Part shown: piece after piece, positions 3,068 through 8,278 of the stretch | How the letters are laid out: the number at the start of each line of letters is the position of its first letter | Position numbering within the stretch: the first letter of the stretch is position 1 | Source: a virus | Length of the DNA: 23,060 nt | Direction: 5' to 3' (one strand) | IMG/VR virus record: IMGVR_UViG_3300050034_000103 | Coordinates: 1 to 23,060 of that record | Position numbers and translations under genes: made by a program | The notes under the pieces: generated by a model | Seen by the model: the letters and a program-made list of their open reading frames with translations, nothing else | Told to the model about the DNA's origin: nothing | Databases searched by the model: none

Positions 3068-3107
3068 CAGCGGATGACTGCAACTTGCAGCGGATGACTG
3101 CAACTTG
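3068..3107 (+). repeat. 20-bp perfect tandem duplication
   Basis: The 20-base unit beginning cagcggatga occurs twice in direct succession (3068-3087 and 3088-3107). It fills exactly the interval between the stop of the preceding gene and the ribosome-binding region of the next. It may be a replication-slippage duplication or a paired operator site. Confidence 0.9.
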
Positions 3108-3122
3108 GAAAGGCTGGAAGCT

Positions 3123-4190
3123 ATGGGGGCGACGACGGGGATCGAGTGGACGGACAGCACCTGGAATCCATTGCGGGGCTGCTCGAAGGTGAGCGCGGGG
3201 TGCGATCACTGCTACGCGGAGGGTATGGCGGCGCGATTCAGCGGACCAGGTCTGCCATATCACAATGTAATCCGTAATGGGCACTGGAATGGAAGCGTTG
3301 AGTTGAGTAAGAAGCATTTGCTTGATCCGCTCAAGTGGAAGCCAGGACGCCCCATTTACGACGCCGCGACCGGGAAGGAAGTCGGATGCGATGCTACGCA
3401 AAGCAGGCGCATCTTCGTGAACTCCATGAGCGACCTATTTCACCCCAATGTCCCGGACGAATGGATTGATCGTATCTTCGCGGTGATGGCGCTCTGCCCG
3501 CAGCACATCTTCCAGGTACTCACCAAGCGGCCTGAGAGGATGTTGGAGTATCTGAGTGGGGCTGCTTGGCAAAGATGCTGTAAGTCTGCCGGTCCTTACG
3601 AAATGGAGAAATCCATCCCTCTTGAAAAATACGCTGATCGATCACACATCCTGGATGGGCACGGTAACCTGATTAGCGTCTTTTCTCGCTGGCCGCTCCC
3701 TAATGTCTGGCTGGGCGTGAGTATTGAGAATCAGGATGCTGCGGATGAGCGCATTCCACTTCTGCTTCAGACACCGGCGGCGGTGCGGTTTGTAAGCTGC
3801 GAACCGATGCTGGGGCTCGTGGATTTGACGGTCTTGCAGCATCGAAATGAGTTTGAGGTAAATGCTTTGACCGGCGACCATGGCGTTCTTCGCCCTCTCG
3901 CTGGACGCAGTGATAGAAAACTGGACTGGGTGATCTGCGGAGGCGAGAGCGGGCCTGGGGCGCGTCCGATGCATGAGAACTGGGCGCGTGGGCTGCGGGA
4001 TCAATGCGCGGCGGCTGGCGTGCCCTTCTTCTTCAAGCAATGGGGTGAGTGGGCACCAACCAATTTCGATCTTTCAATCGGAGGCGCCGTCTCTGGAGAC
4101 GGCGCAATGGCGCGCGTGGGCAAGAAAGCCGCTGGGGCGCTGCTGGATGGACGCGAGTACAAATACGCTCCCGGCGCGGTGGGGGTGTGA
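3123..4190 (+). CDS. Phage Gp37/Gp68 family protein (DUF5131), radical-SAM-like
   Basis: This 355-aa protein starts at ATG 3123, with a purine-rich ggaaaggctggaag ribosome site. The family signature is clear: TGIEWTDSTWNPLRGCSKVS near the start, then Cys20-x6-Cys27-x2-Cys30-Tyr-Ala-Glu, a cluster like the Fe-S ligand loop of radical SAM proteins. Further landmarks are RIFVNSMSDLFHPNVP, FQVLTKRPERM, LPNVWLGVSIENQDAADERIP, RFVSCEPML, WVICGGESGPGARPMH and FFFKQWGEW. The length is at the upper end of what I expect, with extra loop sequence between LTKRPERM and LPNVWLG. The function is not established for this family; iron-sulfur chemistry is an inference from the Cys pattern. It is common in phages and is often carried near replication genes. 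Confidence 0.93.
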   Translation: MGATTGIEWTDSTWNPLRGCSKVSAGCDHCYAEGMAARFSGPGLPYHNVIRNGHWNGSVELSKKHLLDPLKWKPGRPIYDAATGKEVGCDATQSRRIFVNSMSDLFHPNVPDEWIDRIFAVMALCPQHIFQVLTKRPERMLEYLSGAAWQRCCKSAGPYEMEKSIPLEKYADRSHILDGHGNLISVFSRWPLPNVWLGVSIENQDAADERIPLLLQTPAAVRFVSCEPMLGLVDLTVLQHRNEFEVNALTGDHGVLRPLAGRSDRKLDWVICGGESGPGARPMHENWARGLRDQCAAAGVPFFFKQWGEWAPTNFDLSIGGAVSGDGAMARVGKKAAGALLDGREYKYAPGAVGV

Positions 4191-4875: not shown

Positions 4876-5877
4876 GTGAGCGCACGCGCAACGGCATACA
4901 TACTCGGGCTGGAGAGATGCCCCAACGGGGAAGCCATTACCCGTACGGAAAAGATGGTGGGCGTCTCGCTGGCCGACTCGCACCAGGAGCGCAAGGCGGG
5001 CTCCCGCACATTTCCGGCTTTGGAGACGATTGCCCAGGTGGCGATGGTCTCGGTGCGCACCTGCCAACGGCTGCTGGAGAGCCTGGAGCGCAAGGGCGTT
5101 ATTCAGCGCGTCCGGCCCAAGAATCAGGGGCGCGGGGCGGTTACTTTCTACTACTTTTGCGAGCTGGATGAGCTGCCAGAAGGGTGTCATGGTGTCACCC
5201 TTTCCGAGTCCTCTCTTTTTGGGCAAAAGGGTGACAAAAGGGTGACAGAAGGGTGTCATAAGGGTGACATTGACGGTATCGCAATAGATAACAGGGAACT
5301 AAAGCAACAAAAGCAACAAGTGCAAAAGCAAACACCCCCTAACCCCCTCGTGACCGAGGGGGAATGTGGCGAAGAGGAGACGGCTGATGATGGCACGGAA
5401 AAAGAGGGCGCCGAAATCCTGGCGGGGAACGGGGTTGCGGATGGGTCGGAAAAGCCTGATGCATTGCCATGCAGTCCTCAGGGCTGCAATCGGGACAGAG
5501 CCGACGAGGATAAAAGCGACGGATTTAGGCATTTACTTCGAACGCTGGGCGCAGCAAGGTCGGATGACCGCATCACGGTAGCCGTTGACCAGGTGATGAG
5601 GGGTTGCGGCTTCACCGCGCGGAGGCTCCGGCCAGTGATGGCGGCGGTGATCCAGCAGGAGGCGGACAAGGGCGAGCCGCCGCCGAAGACGGCGCTGGCG
5701 ATGATCGCGGCGTGGAGCAGTTACATCCTGCAGGGCGAAAAGCTGCGCTGCAAATGGGGCGCGCGGCGGTTCTTCGCGGAGGGCTACTGGCGAGAATCCG
5801 AGAGCTGGCCGTGGGATGCGGTGGTTTTACGGGAGCAGCAGGTACGGGCCCAGGCGTCCGTGGGGAGTTACCAGTGA
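4876..5877 (+). CDS. winged-helix replication initiator, lambda O-like
   Basis: This 333-aa protein starts at GTG 4876 behind GGGAGAG. Residues about 46-80 (TFPALETIAQVAMVSVRTCQ, then RLLESLERKGVI) are a clear helix-turn-helix/winged-helix with the usual wing residues QGRGAVTFYY. Residues about 101-215 are a low-complexity, acidic and Gln/Lys-rich linker that is partly dictated by iterons in the DNA. The C-terminal part (216-333) is a compact helical domain with TARRLRPVMAAVIQQEADKG and WGARRFFAEGYWRE. Architecture, position before a DnaA-type gene and internal iterons fit a phage initiator that binds its own coding sequence. It would open the origin and recruit a helicase through its C-terminus (inference). 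The end overlaps the next gene by GTGA. Confidence 0.75.
   Translation: MSARATAYILGLERCPNGEAITRTEKMVGVSLADSHQERKAGSRTFPALETIAQVAMVSVRTCQRLLESLERKGVIQRVRPKNQGRGAVTFYYFCELDELPEGCHGVTLSESSLFGQKGDKRVTEGCHKGDIDGIAIDNRELKQQKQQVQKQTPPNPLVTEGECGEEETADDGTEKEGAEILAGNGVADGSEKPDALPCSPQGCNRDRADEDKSDGFRHLLRTLGAARSDDRITVAVDQVMRGCGFTARRLRPVMAAVIQQEADKGEPPPKTALAMIAAWSSYILQGEKLRCKWGARRFFAEGYWRESESWPWDAVVLREQQVRAQASVGSYQ
5182..5270 (+). repeat. GGGTGWCA iteron cluster, putative phage replication origin
   Basis: Inside the initiator gene there are four direct copies of GGGTGACA/GGGTGTCA whose GGG begins at 5229, 5240, 5251 and 5262, exactly 11 bases apart. A fifth direct copy is at 5182, and an inverted copy (TGTCACCC) is at 5193-5200. 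The four tandem copies face the same side of the helix. Just downstream (5271-5335) lies an A-rich, G-poor tract, a candidate unwinding element. Iterons plus an A/T-rich tract inside an initiator gene is the layout of the lambda origin within gene O. Confidence 0.75.
5271..5335 (+). other. A-rich tract beside the iterons, candidate unwinding element
   Basis: Immediately after the iterons the sequence becomes strongly A-rich on the + strand, with repeated aaagcaacaa-type runs encoding Gln/Lys. This contrasts with the G+C-rich surroundings. In iteron-type origins such a tract is where the duplex opens. It remains coding (ELKQQKQQVQKQ). Confidence 0.55.
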
Positions 5878-6740
5878 GTGCGATGGGGAAGCTGATTGGG
5901 GTGGAGTGCGTGGAGTGCCGGCGGAAGGGTCATCACTGCCAGGCGCAGATCGTGGTGGAAGATGAGCCGCTGTGCCTGCGCTGCGCGGACGGCGAGGCCT
6001 GCTGCTACGTGACCGGCGCGGGCTTCCGGGATGGCTTTAACTTTGCGGGAGCGGATGAGGATGATCCCTGCCAGCCGATCTTGCCAGCACAGCCGGTTTA
6101 TCACCGGGCGCACGAAATGCGCTTTCTGCCGCCGAATTACACGACGACGGAGCGAGATCGGTTCCGGTGCGAATTGCGCTATGCCTCGATCGCGGAGGTG
6201 GCGAAGCGGCATGGGATGGAGCCGGAGATGATTGCGCAGTTTGCCGATCCTGACGAGAATCCGCAGCCGAAGCCGCTGTCGAAGAGGGCGGCGAAGAAGC
6301 TCAAGGCGGCGATCAACCGGCCGGTGCGGCGGGTCATCGACGGCGAAGTGGTGCGGATGGCTCCGGGCGCGGTGATGGGGCCCGAGTTTCTGAAGCACAA
6401 GCCGGTTTCGATCCTGCGAATCCAGAAAACCATTTCGGTATATTTTGGGATTTCGCGCGAAGAGATGCTGAGTCGATCGCGCTCTGAGAAATACATGATT
6501 CCCCGCCAGATTGCAATTTCTCTCTCGAGGAAGTTTTCGGGAGAAAGCATTTCCGAAATAGGCAGAAACTTTAAGTTGCACAACTCTACCGCGCATAATG
6601 CGATCTCTTCGATCAAACACCGAATGGGGAGTTATCCAGAGCTCGAAAAAAAAGTTACAGAAATTAAAACGCTGTTATTAAAGGATTTAAGCGAGGAATC
6701 AGACGATGAATCAAGAGTTATGTGCGCCGCTGCGGACTGA
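5874..6740 (+). CDS. Cys-rich protein with isolated DnaA domain IV
   Basis: This 288-aa protein starts at GTG 5874, overlapping the previous TGA and preceded by GGGGAG; ATG 5883 is an alternative. The N-terminus holds C-x2-C, H-x-C, C-x2-C and CC (residues 12-44), a likely zinc fold. Residues 183-252 match DnaA domain IV, the part that binds DnaA boxes: ISVYFGISREEMLSRSRS, then PRQIAISLSRKFSGESISEI and a G-R-N-F turn. The usual R-D-H-T signature is replaced by L-H-N-S-T, so box specificity is probably altered. There is no AAA+ domain, so it cannot act as a full initiator. It may load host DnaA, bind DnaA boxes, or act as a regulator. The domain IV half is visibly A/T-richer than the first half. 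Confidence 0.85.
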   Translation: MSAMGKLIGVECVECRRKGHHCQAQIVVEDEPLCLRCADGEACCYVTGAGFRDGFNFAGADEDDPCQPILPAQPVYHRAHEMRFLPPNYTTTERDRFRCELRYASIAEVAKRHGMEPEMIAQFADPDENPQPKPLSKRAAKKLKAAINRPVRRVIDGEVVRMAPGAVMGPEFLKHKPVSILRIQKTISVYFGISREEMLSRSRSEKYMIPRQIAISLSRKFSGESISEIGRNFKLHNSTAHNAISSIKHRMGSYPELEKKVTEIKTLLLKDLSEESDDESRVMCAAAD

Positions 6741-8074: not shown

Positions 8075-8278
8075 AATCTTCAGGGCAGTCCCCCGCGAGA
8101 CCGCGCTTACAAGGAAACTTTTACTTCCACAAAATACGAAAAACTCCCAAAATCAGCCTAAAACGGCATTCTGGTCGCTTCTTCTATGAGGGGCCCTCAA
8201 ATTCAGCAGATAACCCCGCAGGAGGCGCTTTCTCGGCAAGAATGACGCCGCGCGGACCGGCTTTGCAGGATGGCCACC
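8075..8278. other. 204-bp gap between HNH and small terminase genes; possible cos region
   Basis: No gene is supported here. Bases about 8105-8165 are A-rich and contrast with the surrounding G+C-rich sequence, and there is a near-palindrome GAGGGGCCCTC at 8187-8197. In cos phages with an HNH protein the packaging cut site commonly lies just before the small terminase gene. This is the only sizeable non-coding stretch in that position, so it is a cos candidate by location only. A late promoter could also lie here, but I see no convincing -35/-10 pair. Confidence 0.3.

Follow-up and report, generated by a model that had tools for sequence, protein, structure and literature searches.

An iteron origin of replication is predicted to lie inside the gene of its own initiator, a probable HTH_36 protein, in the 23,060-nucleotide stretch of viral DNA analysed here (the window), where it would be bound by that protein in a manner resembling the origin of phage lambda; a probability of roughly 0.85 is assigned to this reading. 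The site, its layout, its conservation at the DNA level and its link to one protein family are established, and the proposed lambda-like working rests on anatomy together with conservation. Origins located within genes are already known, the new elements being the packing of one site per helical turn (11 bp) and evidence that such an architecture is common, with motifs that differ. The features concerned are collected in Table 1.

Table 1. Features of the initiator gene, the octamer array and the adjoining sequence (window coordinates).
Feature	Position	Strand	Basis or remark
Initiator gene, 333 aa, GTG start	4876..5877	+	PHROG matches at N-terminus, HTH_36
N-terminal winged-helix domain, residues 1-100	4876..5175	+	AlphaFold2 pLDDT ~80-98 per block
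Predicted recognition helix, residues 60-72 (R61, Q64, R65)	5053..5091	+	Helix in both models
Iteron octamer GGGTGTCA, first of inverted pair	5182..5189	+	Exact motif match
Iteron octamer GGGTGACA, 11 bp from 5182	5193..5200	-	Exact motif match
Iteron octamer GGGTGACA	5229..5236	+	Exact motif match
Iteron octamer GGGTGACA	5240..5247	+	Exact motif match
Iteron octamer GGGTGTCA	5251..5258	+	Exact motif match
Iteron octamer GGGTGACA	5262..5269	+	Exact motif match
A-rich, T-poor tract, candidate DNA-unwinding element	5283..5342	+	62% AT
Perfect 8-bp inverted repeat, 4-nt loop, CCCCCTCG-TGAC-CGAGGGGG	5343..5362		Sequence
Rest of linker, without blastn match in L124 or L125	5396..5580	+	Flanks match 80-97%
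C-terminal helical region, residues 213-328	5512..5859	+	AlphaFold2, confidence mostly 40-79
DnaA domain IV protein (Bac_DnaA_C, E 3.8e-15), no other Pfam match including AAA+	5874..6737	+	Overlaps initiator stop codon

Six exact copies of the octamer GGGTGWCA occur within 88 bp, in codons 103-132 of the open reading frame and just 3' of the part encoding the winged helix. The original prediction had placed four direct copies 11 bp apart, preceded by a fifth direct and an inverted copy, and every one of these proved to be an exact match, with the 11-bp spacing of the four equally exact. The motif is found nowhere else in the window, the total of six comparing with 0.80 expected and not being reached in any of 100 shuffles. 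No more than three octamers appeared when the codon order of the reading frame was shuffled, and no more than five when the protein was kept and its codons were replaced at random by synonymous ones (20,000 trials each). With one mismatch tolerated, two matches is the highest density in any other 120 bp of the window. Pairs in opposite orientation like the one at the upstream end of the array, 11-14 bp apart, have been seen repeatedly in the family. As 11 is not a multiple of three, successive copies are read in rotating frames (KGD, RVT, EGCH and KGD), which shows that it is the DNA, not the peptide, that repeats. The translation previously given (EGCHGVT...KGDKRVTEGCHKGDIDG) has been confirmed and, with the array being part of the translated sequence, the DNA dictates which linker residues stand here, as had been claimed from the outset for the KGD and EGCH residues. 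A repeat kept for the protein, or a minisatellite without DNA-binding function, is thus very improbable as an account of the array: exact-period GGGTGWCA minisatellites do exist in bacterial genomes outside the family, but here the frames rotate, both strands are used, the spacing varies by helical steps and the octamers are conserved as DNA.

This conservation is apparent from two close relatives, L124 and L125, in both of which all 48 of the 48 octamer bases are identical. Between the window and L125, whose proteins are 75% identical, there are 22 synonymous changes in codons 1-100 and a single one in codons 101-162 (p 0.0003); a similar deficit is detected between L124 and L125 (p 0.001), and that between the window and L124 is not significant (p 0.08). 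Downstream, the rest of the linker appears as a replaced or hypervariable segment, with flanks matching L124 at up to 95-97%. A linker preserved as protein while its DNA repeat was lost would have spoken against the original prediction, and the opposite is observed, with the octamers kept and both the non-octamer codons of the array region and the rest of the linker changing. Identical octamers, next to winged-helix codons that vary synonymously and a linker remainder that is replaced, argue that the repeats are conserved as DNA, and the loss of similarity between matching flanks indicates that the linker is free to vary as protein and the origin segment is not. The replaced segment also recalls the borders of recombination events and direct repeats are typical of parS/parC-type sites too, so that a partition, packaging or recombination site merely located in the gene might be envisaged. 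Such a role is nonetheless improbable, given that the array recurs in the genes of a single protein family, always in the same position, across unrelated phages and hosts, that no partition gene has been recognised and that 3 kb separate the array from the terminase genes.

The link to the protein family emerges from a search that started from the motif. Viral contigs were scanned for three GGGTGWCA octamers with gaps of 1-16, giving at least 120 contigs, and a family profile was seeded with residues 1-100 of the window protein alone, a segment without repeats. Among the matches listed, the reading frame spanning the array fits this profile in 77 of 120 contigs, as compared with one of the 54 contigs that make up the whole scan for the reversed octamer (Fisher p ~1e-16). 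A rearranged octamer, GGTGWGAC, gave 9 family matches in 120; most of these show a spacing of 22-24 bp on family genes and are therefore probably variant sites, not noise. The 77 genes carry 405 octamers, of which 403 come after the winged helix and 395 no more than 90 aa from the end of that domain, so that the position first suggested for the repeats, in a linker separating the winged helix from the C-terminal domain, holds across the family. Direct neighbours are most often 21, 22 or 23 bp apart, with inverted pairs peaking at 3 and 11 bp. The octamers occur on both strands and mostly in frames 1 and 2; GGGTGACA and TGACACCC are never in frame 0, where a stop codon (TGA) would arise. When the 92 family genes with at least three octamers are considered, the spacing is 21-24 bp in 70 and 11 bp in only four, namely the window, L124, L125 and the distant L053. 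A separate scan of viral contigs for four octamers at exactly 11 bp gave four contigs, those of these three relatives and one with an unrelated tandem repeat. The 11-bp spacing, whose persistence in related phages had been proposed as a check, is retained in the two close relatives but constitutes a minority layout in the family.

The encoded protein matches several PHROG replication-initiation profiles (phrog_391, 1.6e-6; phrog_270, 4.5e-6; phrog_1032, 3.9e-5), with phrog_8102 as a further such match at its N-terminus. Its score against HTH_36, 22.7 bits, is just below the Pfam cut-off of 25; at E<=0.01 the domain is matched by all 61 aligned array-bearing genes, that of the window included, and all 61 fall in PHROG replication-initiation families (270/1032/391, 'O-like'). 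The PHROG classes represented in the family are replication initiation or primosomal, some members having a DnaT-type C-terminus. In the predicted recognition helix, R61 and R65 are almost invariant among 61 relatives. Residues 108-210 are mostly modelled at low confidence (AlphaFold2 pLDDT mostly <50), so that the octamers are translated into a linker predicted to be disordered. The top-ranked solved folds include the N-terminal domain of pSK41 Rep (4pql/4pt7/5kbj, Z 8.8/8.6/8.2), the 4pql match (rmsd 2.8, 86 aligned) being tied with Fur, LexA and many other winged helices. Neither a RepA_N domain nor PF04492 was detected by Pfam in the window protein at E<=0.1, PF04492 being matched by lambda O itself at 5.7e-36 and being absent from the 25 families listed for those relatives aligned (61). 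A tblastn comparison of the window protein with named phages gave no matches.

The sequence that follows the array has further properties that would suit an origin. The 60-mer at the foot of the repeats has the highest A fraction among all 23,000 60-mers of the window, so that the A-rich tract originally described there is real, and it is nearly unchanged in L124 and L125. The hairpin directly beyond it, absent from the earlier description, is identical in both relatives across the aligned part. Across the family, the sequence past the array is richer in AT in 68 of the 77 genes (mean 0.53, vs 0.46 for the reading frame), and A exceeds T there in 74 of them. GC skew, which had been proposed as a check, gives no support for the origin, since in the 23-kb window its sign switches near 8.2 kb and not at 5.2 kb; the change near 8200 adjoins the terminase genes. 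No DnaA-box cluster was found in the window. An alternative would be that the array is an operator controlling transcription of its own or downstream genes, with replication starting elsewhere. HTH_36 winged helices do resemble the repressor folds of Fur, MarR and LexA, and an array within a gene could serve as a roadblock; this option is nevertheless considered unlikely, as some 300 bp of the gene precede the array, the PHROG classes are those of replication initiation and primosomal proteins, some with DnaT-type C-termini, and an A-rich tract with a hairpin suits an origin.

The gene that follows the initiator is retained beside it in the relatives (97% identical in L124, 58% in L125), and its DnaA domain IV product is possibly an initiation helper or partner, or else a decoy of host DnaA. 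Upstream of the initiator, an open reading frame at 1405-1806 matches phrog_997, 'replication terminator' (1.3e-23), and a DUF5131/phrog_2045 gene (1.7e-111) at 3105-4187 lies mostly in a block without match in L124.

Taking the in-gene origin as the preferred reading, the origin of the phage would extend over positions 5182-5362. The winged-helix N-terminus is presumed to bind each octamer, and four copies one helical turn apart would bring the protomers onto the same face of the helix, with the upstream inverted pair capping the array. By analogy with lambda, the nucleoprotein complex would strain and open the A-rich tract that follows the octamers, after which the C-terminal helical region may aid helicase loading. 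A lambda P-like loader or a helicase was not recognised among the genes scanned.

In lambda, the initiator sites and an AT-rich tract are found in the middle of the O gene, each iteron being an inverted repeat (PMC7466680). The lambda iterons begin at codon 117, are 20, 24 and 23 bp apart and are followed by an A-rich tract. The iterons of lambda O, as those of Stx phage O, thus lie in the initiator gene, 3' of the part that encodes the DNA-binding domain, as do the window's from codon 103, and the spacing most common in the family, 21-23 bp, agrees with that of lambda. The lambda iterons are, however, 18-bp inverted repeats, whereas the window sites are 8-bp, non-palindromic and one turn apart; with lambda at about one protomer per turn, the single octamer per turn of the window may amount to the same density. 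Lambda O belongs to PF04492 and the window protein probably to HTH_36, with no detectable sequence match between them, and downstream lambda carries the helicase-loader gene P where the window has the DnaA domain IV gene, with no loader match in Pfam or PHROGs. The description 'lambda-O-like' therefore stands as regards architecture and PHROG label, but not as regards sequence homology, and for lack of a PF04492 domain and of a downstream P gene the window protein was not counted among the lambda O family.

Plasmid initiators provide other points of comparison. In pSK41 Rep, an N-terminal winged helix binds four Rep boxes central in rep, the linker encoded by the origin is dispensable as protein and the C-terminal domain is helical (PMC5703833). 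By sequence layout, central in-gene boxes and an origin-encoded linker are common to this protein and the window, which differ in domain (RepA_N in pSK41 Rep), host, element type and site sequence. Among systems studied by experiment, the chimeric Rep of pPR9/pUSA03 comes nearest to an HTH_36 initiator whose origin lies in its gene: it is reviewed as having a pfam13730 (HTH_36) N-terminus that was swapped in along with the origin region, the two forming one block of ~500 bp, and autonomous replication has been demonstrated for pPR9 (PMC5703833). The pPR9 rep differs from the window family in giving no profile match and no in-gene repeat above the shuffle null. In the papers searched, no in-gene origin was found for HTH_36 phage proteins or for those of PHROG 270/1032/391.

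Arrays in family genes are not confined to viral contigs, having been found on bacterial contigs of Caballeronia, Mesorhizobium, Rhizobium, Halomonas and Campylobacter concisus, as well as of Solihabitans, an Acidimicrobiaceae and a Clostridiales bacterium. A genome-wide pattern scan was dominated by exact-period minisatellites, with 22 of 114 matches in family reading frames; irregularly spaced arrays with inverted pairs were mostly among these 22. The exact-period GGGTGWCA tandem arrays (8, 16, 21, 22, 23 and 24 bp; loci L247-L360), which lie outside the gene family, come from Bacteroidota, Chloroflexota, Cyanobacteria and others. Sampling that starts from the motif favours the octamer by its very design, and in a protein-first HTH_36 sample (Pseudomonadota and Bacillota) the exact octamer is present in 3 of 56 genes, all from genomes found through the motif, on which ground the octamer was rejected as universal in HTH_36. 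In-gene repeats above a codon-shuffle null were detected in 19 of 50 HTH_36 genes, mostly with other motifs, such as GTAGGnTC, GGGTGnTC and TnGTGAAA, often 21-24 bp apart with inverted pairs; at 5-12 shuffles per gene this null is a modest one, and individual motifs are to be taken with care. More examples were seen in actinobacteria and in named phages, and gp84 of the cultured Gordonia phage DatBoi has 4 exact octamers. In two further HTH_36 genes, eleven copies of GCAGAnTC (L458:1444-2514) and ten of GTCTCnGA (L126:3001-3672) are paired on opposite strands 3 bp apart, forming palindromic sites. Judging from these gene sequences, the in-gene array architecture is common but not universal in HTH_36, some of whose genes lack an array, and the octamer is one dialect of it. 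At residue 65, arginine is found in 90 and lysine in 2 of 92 GGGTGWCA genes, and 16 of the 28 genes that carry a different motif have arginine, an association with the motif that is suggestive only, relatedness not being controlled for.

These observations make it reasonably probable that HTH_36 phage initiators include a large family, spread across phyla, whose members carry their own sites within the gene, in a fixed architecture of winged helix, ~8-bp sites in helical steps, inverted pair and A-rich tract, with a motif differing by subfamily and a recognition code that could then be read from sequence; the window would be a compact, one-site-per-turn form of it. To our knowledge, the origins of most environmental phages are unknown, and a short DNA pattern combined with a protein profile would locate a probable origin to the base in raw contigs, both viral ones and those from the genomes of bacteria belonging to Pseudomonadota, Actinomycetota, Bacillota and Campylobacterota. 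As the DNA-reading helix and its presumed sites are encoded in one gene, many natural protein-site pairs become available, which are useful for the study of DNA choice by winged helices and of origin-initiator co-change, and which make the recognition code testable. The array also serves as an example of coding sequence shaped by DNA function and not by protein function. Should the reading of a wider family be true, each gene would be a self-contained initiator-plus-origin cassette that records the DNA read by its winged helix.
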